A stretch of 45,248 nt of DNA, from positions 1 to 45,248 of the forward strand of contig JAAYYF010000017.1 in the NCBI GenBank assembly GCA_012515535.1. The letters run 5' to 3'. Of this stretch, positions 19,905 through 31,320 are shown piece by piece. The notes beneath the pieces are model-generated. The model was not told the DNA's origin, did no database searches, and saw only the letters and a program-made list of their open reading frames with translations. The position numbers and the translations under genes are program-made. The DNA comes from Deinococcales bacterium (lineage in GTDB: Bacteria; Deinococcota; Deinococci; Deinococcales; Trueperaceae). How positions within the stretch are numbered: the first letter of the stretch is position 1; every line of letters begins with the position of its first letter.

Positions 19905-22100
19905 ATGAACAGTCGCACCCTCACCGGCCTACTCGTCCTAGGCATGACCATCGCCTCGGTCCTCTACCTCTGGCAGCCCTGGAGCCCCGACCCGGCCATC
20001 AAGCTGGGCCTCGACCTGCAAGGCGGCCTCCGCGTCACGCTGGTGTCCGAGACGCCCAACCCGAGCGCCGAGGACCTCAACACCGCGCGCAACATCGTCG
20101 AGAACCGCGTCAACCAGTTCGGCGTCTCCGAGCCGCTCATCCAGACGGCCGGCAACGACAAGATCGTCGTCGAGCTGCCCGGCCTCACCGCCGAGGACCA
20201 GCAGCGCGCCCTCGACCTCATCGGCCAACAGGCGGTGCTCGAGTTCCGCCTCGTCCGGCCGCAGGCCAACGCCATCGCCGACGAGTTCCTCACGCTCGAC
20301 GACCTCGAGGCGCCGGCCTTCACCGGCGAGATCATCTCCACCGCCAGCGCCCAGTTCCAGCAGGTGCCGGGGCAGCCAGCCGGCCCGGTGGTGGTGTTCG
20401 AGATCCGCCCCGGCGACCAGCAGGCGTTCGGCAACTTCACCGGCACCAACGTGGGCCGGCGCATGGCCATCGTGCTCGACGACGTGATCGTCACCGCCCC
20501 CACGCTGCAGTCGCGCATCTCCGACAGCGGGCAGATCACCGGCGTGGGCTCGCTGGAGGAGGCCACCGACGTGGCCGTCGTGCTGCGCTCGGGCAGCCTG
20601 CCGATCAGCCTGCGCGTCGACGAGGTGCGCTCGATCGGCCCCACCCTAGGTCAGGACTCGATCAACAAGGGCACGCTGGCCGCCATCATCGGCGGCGCGG
20701 CCGTGATCGTGGCCGTGGTGGCCTACTACGGCCCGCTATTCGGCGGCGTGCTCGCCTTCGGCGTGCTGCTGGCCATGCTGTTCATCTTCGGGGTGCTGGC
20801 CGCCCTGGGCGCCGCGCTCACGCTGCCGGGCCTGGCGGGCCTGGTGCTCACCATCGGCGCCGCCGTCGACGGCAACGTCATCTCGTTCGAGCGCATCCGC
20901 GAGGAGCTGCGCGACGGCAAGAGCCTGCGCGTGGCCATGAAGCGCGGCTTCGGCTTCTCGGTCTCGGCCATCGTCGACGCCAACCTCACCTCGCTGCTGG
21001 CGGCCGGCGCGCTCTACCAGTACACCACCGGCGCCGTGCGCGGCTTCGCCATCACCCTGGCCATCGGCCTGCTGGCGTCGATGTTCGTGAACCTCGTGGT
21101 CGTGCCGTGGATCCTCGACCTGCTCACCCTGCGTAACCAGAAGAGCTACATGTGGATCGGCCGCGCCATCAAGGGCCTCGACTTCGTGCGCAACGCCGCG
21201 CCCGTGGTCATCGTCACGGTGCTGCTGGCGGTGGGCTCGCTCGTGTACGTGAACGTGGCGGGCATGGACATGTCCACCGACTTCACGGGCGGCAGCAACA
21301 TCCTCCTCGACCTGCCCGAGGACACGACCCCGCAGGCGCTGCGCGCGGCCATCGCCGAGCTGGACGTCGAGGGCGTCGACGCCGCCTCCGCGGCCATCGT
21401 GCAGATCGAGGGCGGGCGCAACCTGATGTCGGTGCGCGTGGGCCTGCCCGAGCAGGACACCCGCGCCACCGAGGAGTTCGCGCTGGCGCTCTCCGAGGCC
21501 ACCGGCGCCGAGCTGCAGTCGGCCGAGTTCGTGGGCCCCTCCGTGGGCGCCGACCTGCGCCGCGGCGCGGTGCTGTCGGTGGTCGTGTCGCTGCTGCTGA
21601 TCCTGGTGTACGTCGCCATCCGCTTCTGGCCCAACTGGCTGGTGGCGGTGCTGGTGGTGCTGGCCACCGCCCACGACGTCGCCATCACGCTCGGCGTCCA
21701 GGCGCTGTTCGGCATCGAGTTCAGCATCCCGGTGCTGGCGGCGCTGCTGTTCGTGGTCGGCTACTCGCTCAACGACTCGATCATCATCTCGGACCGCGTG
21801 CGCGAGAACGTCAAGAACCTCCGCGGCATGAGCTACCGCGAGATCGTCAACGCTTCGGTGAACCAGGTGCTCACCCGCACGGTGGTCACCTCGGGCACCA
21901 CGCTGCTGCCGGTGCTGGCGCTGCTGTTCTTCGGCGGCAGCGTGCTGCGCGGCTTCAGCGTCACGCTGATGGTGGGCATCTTCATCGGCACCTTCTCGAG
22001 CCTCTTCCTGCTCGTGCCCCTCATGGTGTGGGGCCGCGACTGGCTGCGGAGCTACGAGGAGCGGCGCCGCGCCACCAAGCGCGCCGGGGCGCGCACCTGA
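19905..22100 (+). CDS. secDF: Protein translocase SecDF (SecD-SecF fusion)
   Basis: Inner-membrane partner of SecYEG that uses the proton gradient to pull preproteins across. The 731-residue single chain matches the Thermus SecDF layout: TM1 (residues about 5-24), a large periplasmic P1 domain with LGLDLQGGLRVTL, TM2-6 ending near residue 400, then a SecF half from about 415 with FTGGSNILLDL and TM7-12. Residues known to matter for proton transport in Thermus have counterparts: Asp322 in AAVDGNVISFERI, Asp624 in YSLNDSIIISDRV and Arg658 in VLTRTVVTSGTT, with the last two 34 residues apart as in Thermus. GGAG lies 8 bases before the ATG. A hairpin CGGACCG / CGGTCCG (19871-19889) precedes the start by 15 bases. 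Confidence 0.97.
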   Translation: MNSRTLTGLLVLGMTIASVLYLWQPWSPDPAIKLGLDLQGGLRVTLVSETPNPSAEDLNTARNIVENRVNQFGVSEPLIQTAGNDKIVVELPGLTAEDQQRALDLIGQQAVLEFRLVRPQANAIADEFLTLDDLEAPAFTGEIISTASAQFQQVPGQPAGPVVVFEIRPGDQQAFGNFTGTNVGRRMAIVLDDVIVTAPTLQSRISDSGQITGVGSLEEATDVAVVLRSGSLPISLRVDEVRSIGPTLGQDSINKGTLAAIIGGAAVIVAVVAYYGPLFGGVLAFGVLLAMLFIFGVLAALGAALTLPGLAGLVLTIGAAVDGNVISFERIREELRDGKSLRVAMKRGFGFSVSAIVDANLTSLLAAGALYQYTTGAVRGFAITLAIGLLASMFVNLVVVPWILDLLTLRNQKSYMWIGRAIKGLDFVRNAAPVVIVTVLLAVGSLVYVNVAGMDMSTDFTGGSNILLDLPEDTTPQALRAAIAELDVEGVDAASAAIVQIEGGRNLMSVRVGLPEQDTRATEEFALALSEATGAELQSAEFVGPSVGADLRRGAVLSVVVSLLLILVYVAIRFWPNWLVAVLVVLATAHDVAITLGVQALFGIEFSIPVLAALLFVVGYSLNDSIIISDRVRENVKNLRGMSYREIVNASVNQVLTRTVVTSGTTLLPVLALLFFGGSVLRGFSVTLMVGIFIGTFSSLFLLVPLMVWGRDWLRSYEERRRATKRAGART

Positions 22101-22765: not shown

Positions 22766-23481
22766 GCCTCCGCGCTGAGCAGCAGCGCCGCGGCCAGCGC
22801 CACCGGCGCCGTCTCGGCGCGCAGCACGCGCGGCCCGAAGCGCACGGCGCGCGCGCCGCGTGCCACCAGCGCCTCCACCTCGTCCGGCGCGAAGCCGCCC
22901 TCGGGGCCGGTGACGGTGGTGAGCGGCCCGGCGCGCCAGGCGCCCTCGGCGAGGAGCGCCGCCAGCGTGCCGTCGGCCTCGGGCTCGGCGACGATGGCGC
23001 CGCCCTCCCAGGTCAGCTCCGCGAGGGGCAGGGGCTCGGTCACGTCGGGCACGATAGCGCGCCCCGACTGGCGCGCCGCCTCCTCGGCCACGCGCCTGAG
23101 GCGCTGCAGGCGCGCCGGCGACAGCGAGGTGGCGTCGGCGTGGCGCGTGACCAGCAGCTGGAAGCGCCGCGCCCCGAGCTCGGTGCCCTGGCGCACCACG
23201 TCGCTGAGCTTGTCGCCCTTGAGGAGCGCCACCGCTACCGTGACGGCGAGCCCCGCCTCGACGGCGCTGGCGCGCGGCTCCTCGAGCGCGAGCGTCACGC
23301 CGTCGCGGTCCACGGCGGCCACCTGGCCCGGCGCCACGCGGCCGGCGCCGTCGAACGCCTCCACGACCGCGCCGGGCTTCACGCGCAGCACGTCGCGCAG
23401 GTGGTGGGCCTCGGGGCCGCGCAGCGCCACGCTGCCGCCCTCCAGCCGCGGCACCAGCACGCGGTGGACGCGTCGCCTCAC
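22762..23481 (-). CDS. rsmE: 16S rRNA (uracil(1498)-N(3))-methyltransferase
   Basis: SPOUT-class methyltransferase that methylates U1498 of 16S rRNA. The 239-residue protein has the N-terminal PUA-like domain (HRVLVPRLEG, HHLRDVLRVKPGAVVEAFDGAG) and the C-terminal knotted domain with ALLKGDKLSDVVRQGTELG, the SAM-binding TGPEGGFAPDEVE and RFGPRVLRAETA. The GTG at 23481 overlaps the prmA stop as GTGA and is taken as the start. This adds three Arg before the usual family start. rsmE next to prmA is a common pairing in bacteria. Confidence 0.93.
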   Translation of the reverse strand: MRRRVHRVLVPRLEGGSVALRGPEAHHLRDVLRVKPGAVVEAFDGAGRVAPGQVAAVDRDGVTLALEEPRASAVEAGLAVTVAVALLKGDKLSDVVRQGTELGARRFQLLVTRHADATSLSPARLQRLRRVAEEAARQSGRAIVPDVTEPLPLAELTWEGGAIVAEPEADGTLAALLAEGAWRAGPLTTVTGPEGGFAPDEVEALVARGARAVRFGPRVLRAETAPVALAAALLLSAEA

Positions 23482-24251
23482 GGCCGGCGGACGAGCTCGA
23501 GCAGCGTCCACTCGCCGTCCTCCTCGCCGTGCACCACCTCGAGCTGCGCCGGCACAGCGTCGAGCACCAGGCCCTTCAGGCGCGTGAGGATGCCCGTGAC
23601 GGCCAGGCGCCCGCCGGGCAGCAGGCGCGCCGCGTACGCCGGGAGCAGCTGGGCGTGCAGCTCGGCGTAGAGGTTGGCCACCACCACGTCGAAGCGCCCC
23701 GGCAGCGTCGGCAGGTCGAGGCTGCCCAGCGCGAAGCGCGCGCTCGAGAGGTTGCGGCGGGCGTTCTCGCGCGCCACCGGCACGGTGGCGGCGTCGACGT
23801 CGACACCGTAGGCGCGCCACGCCCCCAGGCGCTCGGCGGCGATGGCCAGCAGCCCGGTGCCGGCGCCCACGTCGAGCACCGTCCTCCCGCTCAGGTCGAG
23901 GCGCGTTAGCGACGCGAGCGCCATGCGCGTGGTCTCGTGGTGGCCGGTGCCGAAGGCGGAGCCGGGGTCGAGCCACACCACCACGTCGCCGTCGGTGACC
24001 TCGACGGCGCGGTGGCTGGGCGCCACCACGAGCCGCCCCACCCGCACGGGCCCCAGGCCGGCCTGGTACTCGGCCACGTAGTCACGCTCGGGCAGCGTCT
24101 CCCAGGCGCCCTCGAGGGGCAGCTCGCGCTCGGAGTCGAAGTAGGCGACGATCGCCCCCTCCTCCTCGACCAGCCCCAGGCAGCCGAGCTCCCATAGCTG
24201 GGCCGCCTCGGGCGACTCGCCGCCCACCCCCTGGACGCGGAACGCTTTCAT
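23478..24251 (-). CDS. prmA: Ribosomal protein L11 methyltransferase
   Basis: SAM-dependent enzyme that methylates lysines and the N-terminus of ribosomal protein L11. The 257-residue protein is close to the Thermus enzyme in length. It has an N-terminal substrate-recognition domain (about residues 1-65), a linker, and a class I methyltransferase domain. Visible motifs are DPGSAFGTGHHETTRM, SAM motif I VLDVGAGTGLLAIAAERLG, and VVANLYAEL at motif IV. The ATG at 24251 is preceded by GAGGTG about 10 bases away. It is second in a four-gene operon, 39 bases after the PlsY/reductase-like gene. Confidence 0.95.
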   Translation of the reverse strand: MKAFRVQGVGGESPEAAQLWELGCLGLVEEEGAIVAYFDSERELPLEGAWETLPERDYVAEYQAGLGPVRVGRLVVAPSHRAVEVTDGDVVVWLDPGSAFGTGHHETTRMALASLTRLDLSGRTVLDVGAGTGLLAIAAERLGAWRAYGVDVDAATVPVARENARRNLSSARFALGSLDLPTLPGRFDVVVANLYAELHAQLLPAYAARLLPGGRLAVTGILTRLKGLVLDAVPAQLEVVHGEEDGEWTLLELVRRP

Positions 24252-24290: not shown

Positions 24291-26147
24291 TCAGACCTTG
24301 ACGCGGGTGTCGACGACGCGCGCGTCGCGCGTGACGATCTCGAAGCCGAGGCGCTCGCCCTCCAGCAGGTAGAACTCGATGTCGGCGGAGCGCGTGCCGT
24401 TGCCGATGCTCTTGCGCTCGTAGGCGCCGGTGGCGGTGAGGATCATCGTCTCGGCCAGGCAGGCGGGCACGTTGCCGTCGCCGAAGCGCAGGTCGATGCG
24501 GCTGCGCAGCGTGCCGGGCGGGCGCACCACCCCGCCGGGCACCAGCTCCACGCCCGGAACGTCGAGCACCGACTCGTCGACGTCGACGGGGCGCCCCAGG
24601 TCGTAGACCCAGGCGCCGGGCTTCACCTGGTGCGCGAAGATCACCGGGTCGGGGTCGGAGGTGGCGGTGAAGATGAGGTCGGCGCCGGCCACGGCGTCGA
24701 TGTCGGTGGTGGCGAGGATGCGGGTGCGCGGGTGCTTGCGCCGCAGCGTCTCGGCCGAGCGGTTGAGCCGCTCGCGGTCGCGGCCCACCAGGATCAGCTC
24801 GCCGACCTCGCCGGCGATCATGCGCGCCACCCCGAAGGCCACCACGCCGTTGGCGCCCACCACGGCGGCGCTCGCGTCGCGCAGGTTGCCGCCCTGGGTC
24901 TTGAAGCGCCGCAGCAGCCCCGGCACCGCCGCCCGCACGGTGGCGGCCGTGTAGGCGCCGCCGTTGGTGACCACGATGTCGGGCACGGCCTCCTGCACCA
25001 CGCGGCCCTTCTCGCCGACGGTGGACCAGAAGGCGCCCAGGCCGACGACCTCGGCGCCGAGGCGACGGGCGAAGCGCGCGCCCTGGATGGCGAGGCGCAG
25101 GGCGTCATCGGGGTGCGAGCGGAACTGGTCGGGCATCAGGGGCGCCGAGATCAGCAGCACGCGCATCTTGCGCCCGTCGGCCAGCTCGATGCCCTCGATC
25201 ACGCCGTGGAACTGCGGGCGCATGTTCAGGAACAGGCGCTTGAGCCAGCGCTCGGGCACGATGCCCGGGCGCACGAGGCGCTCGACCACCCAGCGCAGCC
25301 AGCGGCTCGAGCGCGGCTGCCACACGTCGTCGTAGGTCATGGGGTGCACCATGAAGGCGCACAGCACGGTGTTGGGGTCGAGGCCGCGCACGGGCGGCGG
25401 CGCCCCCAGGCGCGCCTCGGTGCCGTCGCGGATGCGCGCCAGCGCGCCCATGTGGCGCCACGCCAGCAGCAGGGCGGCGGCCACCAGCGCCCCTGCGAGG
25501 CCGCCCGCCACCGCGCCGCCGACGGCGGCCACCACGGCGGTGACGGCCAGGGCGGCGATGCCCGCCACGCTGGCCAGCGCCACGTAGCCGGTGAGCGCCA
25601 GCAGCGCGGCGTAGACGGCGATGCCGAGGGCGGCGAGCCAGAACGGCACCGCGCCGAGGGCGAACAGCGCCGCCAGCGCGCCCACCACCACGCCGTTGCC
25701 GCGGCCGCGCGGCACGGCGGCCAGGCGCTTGAACGGCAGCGGGTGCAGGTGCCCGAGCAGCACGCCGAAGAAGGCCGCGCCCCCCGCCACCCCGAGCGCC
25801 GCGGGGGCGCTCGCCGCCCAGCCGAGCAGCCCGCCGGACGCGCCCGGCAGCGTGAGGCGCAGGCCCAGCAGCGGGTCGAGCGCCAGCGGCGTGAGCCCCG
25901 CGCCCCACACGCCCGCGAGCGCCCCCACCATCACCGCGGTGAGGCCCTTGAGGATGTCGAGCACGAACGAGGTGACGGCCACGCCCGGCCCCACCAGCTT
26001 GTAGACGTTCTCGACGCCGAGCAGGTGCGGGTTCACGTCGCGCGGGTCGAAGCCCGAGGCGGCCTGCACCAACCAGGCCCCGAGCGGGAGGGAGCCGATC
26101 AGGTAGGCGAGCGACAGGGGTAGCGCCCAGAGCGCGAGGGGTTCCAT
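24291..26147 (-). CDS. Two-domain membrane protein: PlsY-like acyltransferase domain fused to acyl-ACP-reductase-like domain
   Basis: A 618-residue protein with two parts. Residues 1-248 are a polytopic membrane domain like PlsY (acyl-phosphate:glycerol-3-phosphate acyltransferase): GSLPLGAWL, FDPRDVNPHLLGVENVYKLVG, LDILKG, LLGHLHP, and RHMGALARIRDGTEARLG. Residues about 260-618 are soluble and resemble cyanobacterial acyl-ACP reductase (AAR). They show TNGGAYTAATV, the nucleotide-binding VVGANGVVAFG (Gly431-Gly434 region), ELILVGRDRERLNR, and CLAETMIL, whose Cys563 aligns with the AAR catalytic Cys; the tail is also AAR-like. PlsY motif residues look altered: the Ser of GSGN is Pro in this alignment and the Asn of RHxxN is Ala. 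A role in making fatty aldehyde at the membrane is my inference. TAGAAT lies 9 bases before the ATG. It heads an operon with prmA, rsmE and a lipoprotein. Confidence 0.75.
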   Translation of the reverse strand: MEPLALWALPLSLAYLIGSLPLGAWLVQAASGFDPRDVNPHLLGVENVYKLVGPGVAVTSFVLDILKGLTAVMVGALAGVWGAGLTPLALDPLLGLRLTLPGASGGLLGWAASAPAALGVAGGAAFFGVLLGHLHPLPFKRLAAVPRGRGNGVVVGALAALFALGAVPFWLAALGIAVYAALLALTGYVALASVAGIAALAVTAVVAAVGGAVAGGLAGALVAAALLLAWRHMGALARIRDGTEARLGAPPPVRGLDPNTVLCAFMVHPMTYDDVWQPRSSRWLRWVVERLVRPGIVPERWLKRLFLNMRPQFHGVIEGIELADGRKMRVLLISAPLMPDQFRSHPDDALRLAIQGARFARRLGAEVVGLGAFWSTVGEKGRVVQEAVPDIVVTNGGAYTAATVRAAVPGLLRRFKTQGGNLRDASAAVVGANGVVAFGVARMIAGEVGELILVGRDRERLNRSAETLRRKHPRTRILATTDIDAVAGADLIFTATSDPDPVIFAHQVKPGAWVYDLGRPVDVDESVLDVPGVELVPGGVVRPPGTLRSRIDLRFGDGNVPACLAETMILTATGAYERKSIGNGTRSADIEFYLLEGERLGFEIVTRDARVVDTRVKV

Positions 26148-26236: not shown

Positions 26237-27574
26237 GTGGAGAGCCGCACGCCGCCGCACAACCTCGAGGCCGAGCAGAGCGTCCTCGGCAGCATCATGC
26301 TCGACAACGAGGTGTACGCCCAGCTCGAGGGCTCCCTCAGCGCCGAGCAGTTCTACAAGGAAGCGCACCGCAAGATCTTCCGGGGCATGGAGCGGCTGCA
26401 CCGGCGGGGCGAGCCCATCGACCTGGTCACGCTCACCGAGGAGCTGCGCCAGACCGGCGACCTCGAGTCGGTGGGCAGCGTGGCCTACCTGATCGGCCTC
26501 GCCGACAGCGTGCCCACGGCCGCCTACGCCGAGAGCTACGCGCGCATCGTCACCGAGAAGGCCACGCTGCGCGACCTGATCGGCGCGGGCGGGCGCATCA
26601 TGCAGGCGGCGTTCGACCAGGCGGCGCCGCTCGAGGAGGTCCTCGACGAGGCCGAGAAGGCGATCTTCGACCTCACCACCCGCAAGCGCAAGACCGGCTT
26701 CGAGGGTATGAGCACGCTGGTCACCGAGACCTTCGCCGAGATCAACGAGCGCTTCGCCAACCCCAACCCGGTGTCGGGGCTACGCATGGGCTTCACCGAG
26801 CTCGACGGCATGACCGGCGGCCTGCAGCCCTCCAGCCTCAACGTGCTGGCGGCGCGCCCCTCGATGGGCAAGACGGCGTTCGCGCTCACCATCGGCCTCA
26901 ACGCCGCGCTGCGCGAGAAGGCGTCGGTGGGCATCTTCTCCCTCGAGATGTCGGCCGTGCAGCTCGTCACGCGCATGCTCTGCTCCGAGGCGCGCGTCGA
27001 CATGAGCCGCGTGCGCTCGGGCCAGCTCTCCGAGCGCGACTTCCAGCGCCTCGCCGACACCGCCGGGCGCATGTCCGAGGCCAAGGTGTTCATCGACGAC
27101 CACGCCAACATGACCGTCATGGAGCTGCGCTCGCGCGCGCGGCGCCTGATGGCCGAGCACGGCCTCGACCTGCTGATCATCGACTACCTGCAGCTGATGT
27201 CGGGCAGCACCCGCAGCCAGACCGAGAACCGCCAGCAGGAGATCTCCTCGATCTCGCGCGGCCTAAAGGCGCTGGCGCGCGAGCTCGACGTGCCGGTGCT
27301 GGTGCTGTCGCAGCTGTCGCGCGCCGTCGAGTCGCGGCCCAACAAGCGGCCGATGCTCTCCGACCTGCGCGAATCGGGCGCCATCGAGCAGGACGCCGAC
27401 CTCGTCACCTTCATCTACCGCGACGAGTACTACGACCCGCACAGCGAGAAGCACGGCATCGCCGAGATCATCATCGGCAAGCAGCGCAACGGGCCCACCG
27501 GCACCGTGGAGCTGCAGTTCCACAACGCCCACGTCCGCTTCAACGACCTGGCGCGCGGCAACCCGGGCGGCTGA
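26237..27574 (+). CDS. dnaB: Replicative DNA helicase DnaB
   Basis: Hexameric 5'-3' helicase of the replication fork. The 445-residue protein has the N-terminal DnaB domain starting PPHNLEAEQSVLGSIMLD (residues 6-23) that contacts primase, a linker, and the RecA-like C-terminal domain. Walker A is ARPSMGKT (residues 206-213) and Walker B is LLIIDYLQLM with Asp316. Further typical stretches are SLEMSAVQLVTRML, LSQLSRAVESRPNKRPMLSDLRESGAIEQDAD and IIIGKQRNGPTGTVEL. No intein interrupts it, though inteins often occupy dnaB. The GTG start has no Shine-Dalgarno sequence and lies 6 bases after TAGCAT, so a leaderless message is likely. It is divergent from the PlsY/reductase-like gene. Confidence 0.97.
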   Translation: MESRTPPHNLEAEQSVLGSIMLDNEVYAQLEGSLSAEQFYKEAHRKIFRGMERLHRRGEPIDLVTLTEELRQTGDLESVGSVAYLIGLADSVPTAAYAESYARIVTEKATLRDLIGAGGRIMQAAFDQAAPLEEVLDEAEKAIFDLTTRKRKTGFEGMSTLVTETFAEINERFANPNPVSGLRMGFTELDGMTGGLQPSSLNVLAARPSMGKTAFALTIGLNAALREKASVGIFSLEMSAVQLVTRMLCSEARVDMSRVRSGQLSERDFQRLADTAGRMSEAKVFIDDHANMTVMELRSRARRLMAEHGLDLLIIDYLQLMSGSTRSQTENRQQEISSISRGLKALARELDVPVLVLSQLSRAVESRPNKRPMLSDLRESGAIEQDADLVTFIYRDEYYDPHSEKHGIAEIIIGKQRNGPTGTVELQFHNAHVRFNDLARGNPGG

Positions 27575-27774: not shown

Positions 27775-28962
27775 ATGGCCTCATTGCGCGAGCGGCTGTC
27801 TCGCTTGCTAAGTCCCAAGATCGAGGCGGTGGGCCTCGAGGTCGGGACCAGCGCGCTGAAGGTGGTGGAACTTCGCGCCGGCAACCCGCCGACCTTGGGG
27901 GCGCTGGCGGTGCGGCCCATGCCTCCAGGCATCGTCAACGAGGACGAGGTCACCGACCCGGAGGCGCTCGTCGAGGAGATCAAGGCTCTGTTCGACGACG
28001 CAGGGATACAGCGACGCTTCACCGTCACGGCGGTGAGCAACCGGCAAGCGATCACCCGCAACATCCACGTCCCCCACATGACCATCGCCGAGCTCGACGA
28101 GGCGATCCGCTGGGAAGCGGAGCGGTACATCCCCTTCCCCATCGACGAGGTGGTGCTCGACTACTTCGTGCTCGACAACCCCGAGGACGTCGAAGAGGGC
28201 GGCCAGCTCGAGGTGGTGATCGCCGCCGCGCGCCTCGACGAGGTGTCGCAGCAGGTCGAGTACCTCAAGCAGGCGGGCCTGGAGCCGCACGTGATCGACG
28301 TGCGCCCGTTCGCGCTCCTGCGGGCCCTGCGCGGTTCGCTGCTGGGCGAGCACCTCACCAAGACCACCCTCGCCTCCGAGAACTTCACCGAGGCGAACGA
28401 GGTGGGCGTGGTGCTCGAGATCGCCGCCAGCTCCTCGACCGTCACGCTGGTGCGCGGGCAGCGCGTGCTGATGAACCGCAACATCAACGTCTCCGGCGAC
28501 GACTTCACCGCCGCCATCCAGCGCGCCTTCGGCCTCGACTTCGACTCGGCCGAGGAGGTGAAGCTCGAGTACGGCACCGCCACGGTGCCCACCGAGGACG
28601 AGGAGGACCTGCTCAACTTCGACGCCAAGCGCGAGCAGTTCTCCCCCTCGCGCGTCTACGACGCCCTGCGGCCGGTGCTGGTGGAGCTCACCACCGAGAT
28701 CCGCCGCTCGCTCGAGTTCTTCCGCGTGCAGTCCGGCGACGCGCTGATCAGCCGCATGCTCGTCACGGGCGGCGGCGCCAAGCTGCGCGGGCTGCCCGAG
28801 GCCGTCGGCGACGCCCTCGGCTTCAAGGTCGAGATGGGCGACCCGTGGCTCAGCGTGCTGGTCGACGAGAACCGCTTCGACATGCAGTACCTGAAGCGCA
28901 TCGGCCCCGAGTTCGCGGTGCCGCTCGGCCTGGCGCTCAGGGGGGTGGCCGGCGTTGATTAA
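27775..28962 (+). CDS. pilM: Type IV pilus assembly protein PilM
   Basis: Cytoplasmic actin-like ATPase that recruits PilN at the inner membrane for type IV pilus assembly and DNA uptake. The 395-residue protein has the FtsA/PilM fold: phosphate-1 motif VGLEVGTSALKVVEL near residue 21, EAERYIPFPIDEVVLDYFVL as in other PilM proteins, VVLEIAASSSTVTLVRGQRVLMNRNI as phosphate 2, and LVTGGGAKLRGLPEAV as the adenosine site. A strong GGAGGAGG lies 4 bases before the ATG. It is first of the five-gene pilM-pilQ operon; the adjacent shikimate genes reflect an old pil-aro gene order found in several phyla. Confidence 0.95.
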   Translation: MASLRERLSRLLSPKIEAVGLEVGTSALKVVELRAGNPPTLGALAVRPMPPGIVNEDEVTDPEALVEEIKALFDDAGIQRRFTVTAVSNRQAITRNIHVPHMTIAELDEAIRWEAERYIPFPIDEVVLDYFVLDNPEDVEEGGQLEVVIAAARLDEVSQQVEYLKQAGLEPHVIDVRPFALLRALRGSLLGEHLTKTTLASENFTEANEVGVVLEIAASSSTVTLVRGQRVLMNRNINVSGDDFTAAIQRAFGLDFDSAEEVKLEYGTATVPTEDEEDLLNFDAKREQFSPSRVYDALRPVLVELTTEIRRSLEFFRVQSGDALISRMLVTGGGAKLRGLPEAVGDALGFKVEMGDPWLSVLVDENRFDMQYLKRIGPEFAVPLGLALRGVAGVD

Positions 28963-29560
28963 CATCAACCTGCTCCCCAAGAACCTCCGCCGCGTCCGCG
29001 AGCCGGGCTACTGGCGCCTGCTGGCCGTGCTCTTCCCGCTGCTCGTGCTGGCGGTGGCCGGCACCATGCAGTACTTCGCCAACGCCACGGCCGCCAACCT
29101 GCAGCGCGAGAAGCTCGCCCGCGAGGACCAGCTGGCCCTGCTGCAGCCGTTCCTCCGCGAGCAGCGCGACCTGCTCTCGCGCCAGCAGCAACTGAACCAG
29201 CTGATCGCCGTGGCGCGCTCGGTGCGCGAGAACCGCGTGATGTGGACCAGCGAGATCGCCGGCCTGCTCGAGACCCTGCCGGTCGGCGACGGCGCGCCCG
29301 TCATCGACTTCAGCTCGCTGTCGATGCAGAGCGTGGTGCCGCCGCGCGCCGACCCGAACCGCTACGAGGGCCGCCCGGTGGTCGCCGAGATGCAGGTGTC
29401 GGGCTCGGTGACCGACATGGAGGTGCTCGCCGCCTTCGTGCGCGCGCTCGAGAACTCCGACGCCTACGGCGTGCTGTTCCAGAACGCCCAGCGCCAGAGC
29501 GACCAGGACGTGTTCACCTACTCGCTCACCGTCGGCGCCGTGGAAGGCGGTGAGCGATGA
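28955..29560 (+). CDS. pilN: Type IV pilus assembly protein PilN
   Basis: Bitopic inner-membrane protein that links cytoplasmic PilM to the periplasmic PilO/PilP-like ring. The 201-residue chain begins MININLLPKNL, the peptide that binds the PilM groove in the family. One membrane helix follows (about residues 20-42), then a coiled coil (NLQREKLAREDQLALLQPFLREQRDLLSRQQQL) and a small ferredoxin-like domain. The start is the unusual codon TTG at 28955: it gives exactly the family N-terminus, overlaps the pilM stop by 8 bases, and has AGGGGGG upstream. Confidence 0.93.
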   Translation: MININLLPKNLRRVREPGYWRLLAVLFPLLVLAVAGTMQYFANATAANLQREKLAREDQLALLQPFLREQRDLLSRQQQLNQLIAVARSVRENRVMWTSEIAGLLETLPVGDGAPVIDFSSLSMQSVVPPRADPNRYEGRPVVAEMQVSGSVTDMEVLAAFVRALENSDAYGVLFQNAQRQSDQDVFTYSLTVGAVEGGER

Positions 29561-30144
29561 CCAGCCGCGGCTTCGACCTGCGCCGGCTCCGCCAGCGCGA
29601 CATCGCCATCATCATGATCGTGCTGTCGCTGCTGCTGGCCGTGCTCTGGTTCTTCTACATGTACCAGCCGACCCAGGAGCGGATCAGCACGCTCGAGAGC
29701 GACATCGCGCGCCTCGACGTCGACATCCGCCGCGGCGAGGACGCGAGGCGCAACCTCCCCGACCTGCGGCTGGCGGTCGCGCAGCTCGAGCAGGACCGGC
29801 TCGACTTCCTGGCGCAGCTCCCGCGCGAGAGCGACGTGGCGGGCCTCATCGACGCCCTGCGCGTGTCGGCCATCGACTCCGACATGCTCGTGAACGGCTT
29901 CAGCCAGGGCTCGGCCTCGGAGAGCATCCAGGACGTGCGCCCCATCGGCTTCCAGATCGGCCTGCAGGGCACGTTCCAGCAGACGATGGCGTTCCTGGGG
30001 CGGCTCGAGGAGATGCAACGGTTCGCCAAGATCCAGCGCGTCGGCCTCAACCTCGACGACAACACCTCCGCCGACCCGCTGATCAACTCCGACTTCGGGT
30101 TCACCGTGTACGTCTACACCGGTAGCGACCCAGGGGAGCAGTAA
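29557..30144 (+). CDS. pilO: Type IV pilus assembly protein PilO
   Basis: Inner-membrane partner of PilN. The 195-residue protein has a short cytoplasmic N-terminus, one membrane helix (about residues 16-36, IIMIVLSLLLAVLWFFYMY), a coiled coil (ERISTLESDIARLDVDIRR) and a ferredoxin-like periplasmic domain with MLVNGFSQGS and FLGRLEEMQRFAKIQRV. This is the same plan as PilN and typical for PilO. The ATG overlaps the pilN stop as ATGA, giving coupled and perhaps equimolar synthesis. Confidence 0.93.
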   Translation: MTSRGFDLRRLRQRDIAIIMIVLSLLLAVLWFFYMYQPTQERISTLESDIARLDVDIRRGEDARRNLPDLRLAVAQLEQDRLDFLAQLPRESDVAGLIDALRVSAIDSDMLVNGFSQGSASESIQDVRPIGFQIGLQGTFQQTMAFLGRLEEMQRFAKIQRVGLNLDDNTSADPLINSDFGFTVYVYTGSDPGEQ

Positions 30145-30147
30145 GAG

Positions 30148-31320
30148 ATGGCCCTTTCGCGAACCGCTCGCATCCTCATCGCCGTGCTGCTGCTGGCCGC
30201 CGCAGGGTTCTTCTGGGTCAACTACTTCATGCAGAACCCGCCGGCCGTGGACGCCCCGGCGCCCGCCACGCCCCGGCCCATCGACGGTGGCCCCGCCCCG
30301 CTTACCGGCGCTAACGGCGCTCCCGCCGACGCCGGGGCCCCCACGGTGGTCGCCCCCGACGACGCCACCGGCACCACGGCCCCCATGGCCGAGGGCCAGG
30401 GGCAGCCGGCCGACGCCGCCGGCACCGCCGACGCCACCGCGCCCGGCGCCGCGCCCGTGGTCGTCACGCCGCCCGCCGTGGTCGCGCGCGACCTGGTGGT
30501 CGAGGAGCTGCCGTTCCTCGTCACCGAGCCGCCGCTCGTCGGCGTCGAGGAGCCCGCCGAAGCCGAGGCCGACACCGGCCGCGCCGTGCGCGCCGCGCGC
30601 GCCAACGTCAACCCGTTCTCGCCCGTGCTGGTGCAGGCGCCGCCCGCGGCGCCCGTCGCCCAGCAGCCGCCCGCGGCGCAGGAGCCGCAGGTGGTGGTGG
30701 TCGAGGGCCAGCCCGAGCCGACCGCTCCGGCCAGCACCCCCACCGCCACCGCCACCCGCACGCCCGTGGCCGCCCCGGCACCGCGCGCCCTGGCGCCCGC
30801 GCCCAGCCGCGCCGCCGAGCTGCCGCGCCCGCTCCCCAGCGGCACCCTCACCGCCGTGCCCGACATCCTGCGCGACGTGCGCGGGCAGGAGCGCGCCGCC
30901 GCCGGCCCCGCCGACCTCGGCGCCGTGGCCGCCGTGGTGGTGCCCAGCGAGGAGAGCGCCGCCGAGCTGCCCTTCGCCGGCCGCGGCGCGCCGGCGCCCG
31001 AGGCGACGGCCTCCCCCGACGTCATCGGGCCGGGGCACGCCACCCAGCGCGCCGCCGCCTCCTCCACCCTGCCGCTGGCCGTGGGCGCCGACCCGCTCAG
31101 CCGCTACCTGCGCGACAACAACGTGCGCTTCACCGGCCAGGTGCTCGGCCCGCTGAGCGTGGGCGTGTTCCGCGCCAACGGCCAGCAGCAGCCGTTCGTC
31201 GTGACCCTCGGCCAGACGCTCCCCGACACCGACATCGTGCTGTCGGACCTGCGCGGCTACGAAGCAAGCTTCTCGCTGGGCAACCAGACCCAGGTGCTCT
31301 CCTTGGATACCAGGCGGTGA
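30148..31320 (+). CDS. PilP/PilW-position pilus assembly protein with long Pro/Ala region
   Basis: This gene holds the place of pilP in proteobacteria and pilW in Thermus. The 390-residue protein has a single N-terminal membrane helix (residues about 9-27) and then some 260 residues rich in Pro, Ala, Thr and Val, probably a flexible periplasmic tether. A compact C-terminal domain of about 80 residues has strands resembling the PilP homology domain (NNVRFTGQVLGPLSVGVFRANG ... QTLPDTDIVLSDL). It would connect the PilNO complex to the PilQ secretin. The family call rests mainly on gene order and architecture. The ATG lies 3 bases after the pilO stop. Confidence 0.7.
   Translation: MALSRTARILIAVLLLAAAGFFWVNYFMQNPPAVDAPAPATPRPIDGGPAPLTGANGAPADAGAPTVVAPDDATGTTAPMAEGQGQPADAAGTADATAPGAAPVVVTPPAVVARDLVVEELPFLVTEPPLVGVEEPAEAEADTGRAVRAARANVNPFSPVLVQAPPAAPVAQQPPAAQEPQVVVVEGQPEPTAPASTPTATATRTPVAAPAPRALAPAPSRAAELPRPLPSGTLTAVPDILRDVRGQERAAAGPADLGAVAAVVVPSEESAAELPFAGRGAPAPEATASPDVIGPGHATQRAAASSTLPLAVGADPLSRYLRDNNVRFTGQVLGPLSVGVFRANGQQQPFVVTLGQTLPDTDIVLSDLRGYEASFSLGNQTQVLSLDTRR

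Follow-up and report, generated by a model that had tools for sequence, protein, structure and literature searches.

A PlsY-fold membrane domain fused to an acyl-ACP-reductase-fold domain in Deinococcota, and its possible link to the alkylamine phosphoglycolipid

What might a protein do that carries, in one chain, the membrane fold of an acyltransferase and the fold of an enzyme that makes fatty aldehydes? The gene that raises this question lies in a stretch of 45,248 nucleotides from a Deinococcales bacterium of the family Trueperaceae (assembly GCA_012515535.1, contig JAAYYF010000017.1, hereafter the window), and its 618-residue product joins a domain like the acyltransferase PlsY to a domain like cyanobacterial acyl-acyl carrier protein reductase (AAR). 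We favor, with a probability of about 0.52, the reading that it is a membrane-held, cysteine-dependent acyl reductase whose fatty aldehyde would become the alkylamine of a phosphoglycolipid. That lipid is a chemical signature of Thermus and Deinococcus, and its structure was reportedly the subject of a 1985 paper. The enzymes for the third chain and the phosphoglycolipid head of the Thermus lipid were stated in 2022 to be unidentified (PMC9636437), and a near-universal fusion with fitting chemistry makes this gap directly addressable. Among the titles and abstract openings of the open-licence literature, we found no published description of a PlsY-AAR fusion.

Two folds in a single chain

The gene and its parts, numbered as in the window, are as follows.

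24291..26147, minus strand: PlsY-AAR fusion gene, 618 amino acids, ATG start, stop codon included (open frame, profiles, homologues)
25404..26147, minus strand: PlsY-fold membrane domain, residues 1-248 (PF02660 match and Foldseek match to 5xj7)
26010..26012, minus strand: Glu46, at the position of Aquifex PlsY Thr41, an acyl-phosphate contact (Glu in 30 of 31 Deinococcota fusions)
25749..25751, minus strand: His133, equivalent of PlsY His92 in the phosphate hole (kept in 31 of 31 Deinococcota fusions)
25776..25919, minus strand: extra loop within the PlsY domain, roughly residues 77-124 (alignment, predicted structure)
24294..25382, minus strand: AAR-like (thioester-reductase-like) domain, residues 256-618 (profiles, PDB matches, Foldseek)
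24831..24857, minus strand: dinucleotide-binding loop GANGVVAFG, residues 431-439, aligned with AAR 162-GATGDIG-168
24459..24461, minus strand: Cys563, aligned with catalytic Cys294 of cyanobacterial AAR (Cys in 45 of 45 aligned homologues)

Residues 13-239 match Pfam family PF02660 at 75.1 bits (cut-off 24.1). The PlsY equivalog TIGR00023 scores 53.8 bits, below its cut-off of 137.2. The best NCBIfam profile for the reductase domain is that of PigE (NF053554), the reductase half of which matches residues 318-583 at 91 bits, a score from that half alone that does not reach the equivalog cut-off of 850 bits. The AAR model TIGR04058 matches residues 336-582 at 43.1 bits, a small fraction of the 449.7 that its equivalog cut-off requires. 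Profile scans with Pfam and NCBIfam gave no match to an aminotransferase domain in the 618 residues. By sequence, the best PDB matches were PigE 4ppm (3e-9), AAR 6jzu/6jzq (about 1e-8) and PlsY 5xj5 (7e-5).

An AlphaFold2 model, with 31 aligned homologues as input, had a mean pLDDT of 89.1 and a pTM of 0.86. Foldseek ranked AAR chains at positions 1-7 (6jzz, E 1e-18, TMt 0.75), the TAD domain of carmabin synthesis at 8-17, methylene-tetrahydromethanopterin dehydrogenase at 18-20 and PlsY at 21-25 (best 5xj7, TMt 0.79). One chain joins a PlsY-fold membrane domain to an AAR-fold domain; profiles, PDB sequence matches, the predicted structure and conserved residues all bear out the two domain names given in the original prediction. 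The continuous frame that it described is present, on the minus strand, which it had not stated, and every AAR motif that it quoted occurs in the translation. Of the 45 aligned sequences, just six, the window protein and the five others of its genus, have residues at the extra loop in the PlsY domain; part of this loop has a pLDDT below 50.

The fusion is nearly universal in the phylum, which we queried from two centres (sets of 111 and 110 genomes). The C-terminal half was found in 107 of 111 Deinococcota genomes and in 84 of the 85 of good quality; 103 of the 107 have one match, and the other four (G018, G021, G061, G065) have two or three partial ones. Three of the genomes without a match are incomplete assemblies (67, 77 and 72%), and the fourth is G100 (96% complete). 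Every one of the 45 aligned sequences is a single open frame of 548-623 residues with both halves and Cys563, with 89% or more of the checked PlsY columns and 95% or more of the reductase columns filled; the remaining matches were viewed through the open-frame column of the search. With 107 of 111 genomes matching and a single frame in all 45 aligned sequences, we rejected a frameshift or misassembly joining two genes. One fetched stretch outside the alignment (L044, from genome G025) showed no more than a short match at the N-terminus, residues 13-72 within a frame of 605 residues, unlike the search of the whole genome, which reported a reductase-region match.

A scan of contigs returned 69 loci, from Trueperaceae, Thermus, Meiothermus, Calidithermus, other Thermaceae and Deinococcota metagenome-assembled genomes, together with one unplaced metagenome-assembled genome and one from Armatimonadetes (L116). 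None of the 69 came from the genus Deinococcus, which appears to lie outside the genomes searched, so its absence means little. For Thermus parvatiensis RL (L111/G061, G114), the reductase part came as two overlapping matches, as if the gene were split between two frames near its 3' end, whether by sequencing error or by real loss.

The reductase half looks active, to judge from its conserved fold and residues. In the PDB sequence alignment Cys563 pairs with AAR Cys294, the residue that carries the acyl group (PMC7089970), and the position is Cys in 45/45 Deinococcota fusions, as the earlier reading of this single sequence had expected of orthologues, in 6/6 fusions from the phylum Armatimonadota and in 20/20 standalone Armatimonadota relatives. 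Of the 52 sequences compared, 26 of which are Deinococcota fusions, none lacks the loop glycines G431 and G434, and R460 (AAR Arg193) and S497 are present in all 32 fusions compared. We consider it quite probable that this half forms an aldehyde.

A probable fatty aldehyde and where it might go

How could such an aldehyde serve the phosphoglycolipid? The C-terminal domain would load a long acyl chain on Cys563 as a thioester, and a nicotinamide cofactor would serve to reduce the bound acyl group to a fatty aldehyde; the conserved fold and residues point to this chemistry. A separate class III aminotransferase would then aminate the aldehyde, and the resulting long-chain alkylamine would be bound as an amide to the glycerate of the Thermus and Deinococcus phosphoglycolipid. 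In Thermus thermophilus, glyceric acid bears an iso-C17 alkylamine in amide linkage, and iso-C15 and iso-C17 acyl chains are present as well; Deinococcus radiodurans is reported to have a similar lipid, whose alkyl groups are mostly unbranched (PMC3398001). These equal chain types of alkylamine and acyl groups are as a path from acyl to aldehyde to amine predicts. We put the chance that the aldehyde would end in this lipid at about even.

The original prediction had offered the alkylamine link as speculation, and it has been strengthened in part. In its favor are a near-universal gene, mostly with a single match per genome, and the characterized relatives PigE and TamH, in which the reductase is fused to an aminotransferase. 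In E. coli lysates PigE converted a thioester to a transaminated product, and none formed without PigE (PMC8341465); TamH coupled to the carrier protein TamA took a fatty acid to an amine (PMC9594044). The usual partner of AAR, aldehyde deformylating oxygenase (ADO; PF11266), was found in 0 of 111 Deinococcota genomes, and we rejected the AAR-ADO alkane pathway as far as ADO goes. The link remains a hypothesis, with no operon partner found for the gene. None of the evidence speaks specifically to the long-chain diols that the prediction had also named.

Six class III aminotransferases in the bacterium's own genome were all scanned against NCBIfam, and only one, L216, had PigE as its best profile (282 bits; PatA 251). 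Its best PDB matches are nearly tied, PigE at 211.1 bits and putrescine aminotransferase at 209.2. L216 was matched in 105 of 111 genomes at E 1e-40 or better, a count that includes other class III aminotransferases. In 6 of 8 stretches from the Thermaceae-type groups f4/f5, the candidate aminotransferase lies next to a 4HBT-type thioesterase (Pfam was tested on one copy) and a gene that we take to be phosphoglucosamine-mutase-like. We found no aminotransferase in a conserved operon with the fusion gene in the stretches compared. The L216-type enzyme is a candidate partner of the fusion reductase, a lead rather than evidence of pairing.

Several observations weigh against the path to the alkylamine. 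The fusion gene sits in no functional operon that we could find; its neighbours look like housekeeping genes and differ between families. Purified PigE gave no product and no change in NAD(P)H (PMC8341465), and TamH made no amine from C12-CoA (PMC9594044), so activity in this branch of reductases is thinly proven. Within the reductase half, Ala437 stands where the nucleotide loop would have its third glycine (25 of 26 Deinococcota fusions have Ala there), AAR Arg314 aligns with Asn583, and the AAR Arg189 equivalent, Arg456, is kept in 23/26 Deinococcota and 0/6 Armatimonadota fusions. For the counterpart of L216 in Thermus, at L255:8212-9453, putrescine aminotransferase scores above PigE (471 against 432 bits), and class III aminotransferases, a widespread class, occur also in all 20 Armatimonadota genomes given. 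G100, the Trueperaceae genome without the fusion gene, has the aminotransferase candidate, a copy 60% identical to L216. Standalone relatives of the reductase are found in Armatimonadota too, a phylum not known to us to bear such a lipid. Lastly, Deinococcus, for which this lipid type is also reported, fell outside the scope of the search; Deinobacterium chartae, the sole member of Deinococcaceae queried, matches TIGR04058, a weak sign given that Methanocaldococcus jannaschii does so as well. The control genomes Thermus composti and Synechococcus also matched this model.

The strongest competing account keeps the reductase and changes the destination: the aldehyde would pass to fatty alcohol, to ether or vinyl-ether lipids, or to wax or long-chain diols, and the alkylamine would come from elsewhere. 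The reductase assignment is silent on the next step, no aminotransferase shares an operon with the fusion, and no report of an alkylamine lipid in Armatimonadota, where we examined 20 standalone reductases, turned up in the literature listing. Set against these points, the gene is near-universal in a phylum with a signature lipid that cannot be built without a long-chain amine, the closest characterized relatives of the reductase domain feed aminotransferases, and alkane formation is excluded as far as ADO goes. We regard another destination as a possibility of clearly lower standing than the alkylamine.

A rebuilt acyltransferase half and its Armatimonadota relatives

What has become of the PlsY half? 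With an alignment of 66 sequences we located the counterparts of the residues probed in Aquifex PlsY (PMC5700162), counting 31 of the 45 aligned Deinococcota fusions and 24 canonical copies; the partial canonical hits L127 and L206 were left out. In the 31 fusions Ser35 is lost in 29, Thr41 is replaced by Glu in 30, Lys104 by Arg in 28 and Gly102 by Arg in all. Arg45 is kept in 24, Asn37 in 20, Asn180 in 15 and His177 in 10, the last two together in one fusion, and His92, Gly105, Arg183 and Glu189 are kept in every one. The canonical Deinococcota copies retain Ser35, Asn37, Arg45, Lys104, His177 and Asn180 in 24 of 24, Thr41 in 23 (Ser in the other) and Arg183 in 23.

In the window protein, Ser35 is Pro40, Asn37 is Leu, Thr41 is Glu46, Arg45 is Lys50, Gly102 is Arg, Lys104 is Arg149 and Asn180 is Ala235. 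The clamp for the phosphate of glycerol-3-phosphate (Ser35, Arg45, Lys104, Asn180) is therefore not conserved; of the acyl-phosphate side chains, His92 is kept as His133 and Thr41 has given way to Glu46. Residual activities in Aquifex PlsY are about 5% for S35A and T41A, 4.6% for N180A, 25% for K104R, 0.03% for H177Y, 30% for G105A, 14% for G102A and 6.9% for H92N (PMC5700162). Because the replaced residues are ones whose mutants cut the activity of the Aquifex enzyme, the glycerol-3-phosphate pocket of the Deinococcota fusions is, by this reckoning, gone; His92 and part of the loop that holds the phosphate of acyl-phosphate are kept.

Of 251 Armatimonadota genomes, 246 match the two-domain profile, and the weak matches among them may be PlsY only. 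Six matches span both halves (G111, G115, G120, G130, G135, G148); the other listed matches are mainly to the reductase part, in frames mostly of 350-450 residues, and the 20 such frames that we fetched (354-417 residues) have no match to the window's PlsY half, that is, they are standalone. All six fusions keep Ser35, Asn37, Thr41 (Ser in two), Arg45, His92, Lys104, His177, Asn180, Arg183 and Glu189, and all six have Arg for Gly102 and Ala for Gly105. Their PlsY half is likely, though because of those two changes not certain, to be active as an acyltransferase. Each of the six genomes has exactly one PF02660 match, the fusion itself; their completeness is not given, and a second PlsY could be missed in one or another. 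PF02660 copies number 3-5 in all 21 fusion-bearing Deinococcota genomes tested and 2 in G100. A fusion with the substrate-contacting side chains of PlsY kept, in genomes where no other PlsY was found, is new here.

A tree of 52 reductase sequences, with its root at the standalone proteins, gathers the Deinococcota fusions in a single clade (SH-aLRT 99); the Armatimonadota fusions branch beside it in two groups, and the standalone reductases fall apart from both (100). A tree of 66 PlsY sequences places the fusions of both phyla together (99), with those of Deinococcota as one clade (100). Both trees are quick searches with a single support measure. The simplest reading of these patterns would be one fusion event, the fused PlsY being the sole one in an Armatimonadota line and having been rebuilt in Deinococcota, where other PlsY copies would perform the ancestral task; the direction of transfer between the phyla we can only infer. 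The suggested evolutionary series runs from an Armatimonadota fusion with a seemingly live, sole-found PlsY half to a Deinococcota fusion with a rebuilt one.

These comparisons bear on whether the fusion could still be a glycerol-3-phosphate acyltransferase, with the reductase domain as a regulator or a side activity. Such an enzyme would fit the PF02660 score, well over its cut-off, and the six Armatimonadota genomes, but the losses at Ser35, Thr41 and His177 in the Deinococcota fusions, the small activities that changes at these residues leave in Aquifex PlsY and the presence of canonical copies besides make it improbable. Least credible is that the C-terminal domain shares only its fold with AAR, being a Rossmann-type relative that acts on a different substrate, like shikimate dehydrogenase or ornithine cyclodeaminase: Pfam does draw PF01488 Shikimate_DH and PF02423 OCD_Mu_crystall there, but the AAR/PigE match covers almost all of the domain, the Cys motif near the C-terminus included, Foldseek's top seven are AAR chains, and the Cys is invariant across three groups.

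For the membrane-held acyl reductase that we favor, the N-terminal half would derive from an acyl-phosphate:glycerol-3-phosphate acyltransferase, probably still functional at the time of the fusion, as the Armatimonadota relatives suggest. Since the glycerol-3-phosphate site is lost and the acyl-phosphate side partly kept, the likeliest role of the Deinococcota half is to anchor the enzyme in the membrane and to gather acyl chains for the reductase, perhaps in the form of acyl-phosphate. The idea of a PlsY that accepts activated acyl chains needs rephrasing, since most of the glycerol-3-phosphate site is lost: the half is a repurposed PlsY fold.

A tentative extension, which we think unlikely in its entirety, is that the Deinococcota PlsY half, no longer acylating glycerol 3-phosphate, holds acyl-phosphate in its former phosphate hole and hands the acyl group on to Cys563; the protein would then be a membrane fatty-aldehyde synthase supplied with acyl-phosphate rather than acyl-ACP. 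In its boldest form, the near-invariant Glu at the Thr41 position would mark a site for the long-chain amine, and the same PlsY fold would join that amine to a glyceroyl-phosphate such as 1,3-bisphosphoglycerate, giving N-glyceroyl-alkylamine, the lipid head unit. If an acyl-phosphate-fed synthase were real, a relic of an essential acyltransferase would have turned into a new catalytic part.

Some observations on relatives of the two halves stand apart from these questions. Asn replaces His92 in 9 of 24 canonical Deinococcota PlsY copies, and in the four compared copies of a separate second PlsY paralogue (L002, L209, L210, L128) the Thr41 position is occupied by Met, Leu or Phe. PF02660 matches number four or five in all ten f4/f5 genomes tested and two or three in twelve f1, f2 and f3 genomes. 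In 12 of the 20 Armatimonadota stretches that lack the fusion, a conserved protein of about 310 residues is encoded immediately next to the standalone AAR-like gene (for example L161:9996-11009); the one copy scanned matched nothing in Pfam at E 0.01 or in NCBIfam at E 1e-8, and the protein may be a partner of the standalone reductase. An unannotated phage record from human faeces (MT835709.1, 14382-15284) holds a relative of the AAR-like domain, 33% over residues 265-583. On three Thioclava plasmids typed as non-mobilizable (NZ_CP149927.1, NZ_CP149516.1, NZ_CP135444.1), a gene with the annotation class III aminotransferase contains a stretch resembling the reductase (31.5%), an arrangement suggestive of PigE.

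Neighbouring genes and known systems

The genes on either side of the fusion are the following.

23478..24251, minus strand: downstream neighbour, which we take to be PrmA (ribosomal protein L11 methyltransferase)
26237..27574, plus strand: divergent upstream neighbour, which we take to be the replicative helicase DnaB

PrmA-like and DnaB-like neighbours recur in all four other Trueperaceae stretches compared. The Trueperaceae neighbours are presumably dnaB, prmA and rsmE, and those in Thermus presumably infC, rpmI, rplT and mqnB. Open frames overlap the fusion gene on both strands, the longest on the plus strand having 497 residues (24630-26123), because high-GC DNA yields such frames. Elsewhere in the window, a single 731-residue frame (19905-22100, plus strand) is presumably SecD and SecF within one protein, and a run of frames downstream of the dnaB-like gene (27775-31320, plus strand) we take for the type IV pilus assembly genes pilM, N, O and P.

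How does the fusion compare with what is known? With cyanobacterial AAR (6JZU, PMC7089970) the window protein shares the C-terminal fold, the nucleotide loop apart from its third glycine, Cys294 as Cys563 and Arg189 and Arg193 as Arg456 and Arg460. It differs in an identity of about 21%, in the membrane domain in front, in Asn at the Arg314 equivalent, in falling far short of the TIGR04058 cut-off and in a phylum where no ADO was found. With PigE and TamH (4PPM, PMC8341465, PMC9594044) it shares the best NCBIfam profile for its reductase domain and the logic of a Cys-bound thioester; there an aminotransferase is fused on, whereas here the fused partner is a PlsY fold and any aminotransferase would be a separate protein. 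With PlsY (5XJ5-9, PMC5700162) it has in common the fold and the equivalents of His92, Gly103, Gly105, Ser142, His177, Arg183 and Glu189. It departs from PlsY in the replaced Ser35, Asn37, Thr41 and Asn180, in Lys for Arg45 and Arg for both Lys104 and Gly102, and in the reductase fused on. The Armatimonadota fusions (L176-L181) have the same two-domain order, group with the Deinococcota fusions in both trees and likewise carry Arg at Gly102, but, unlike the Deinococcota proteins, keep ten substrate-contacting PlsY side chains (Thr41 being Ser in 2 of 6).

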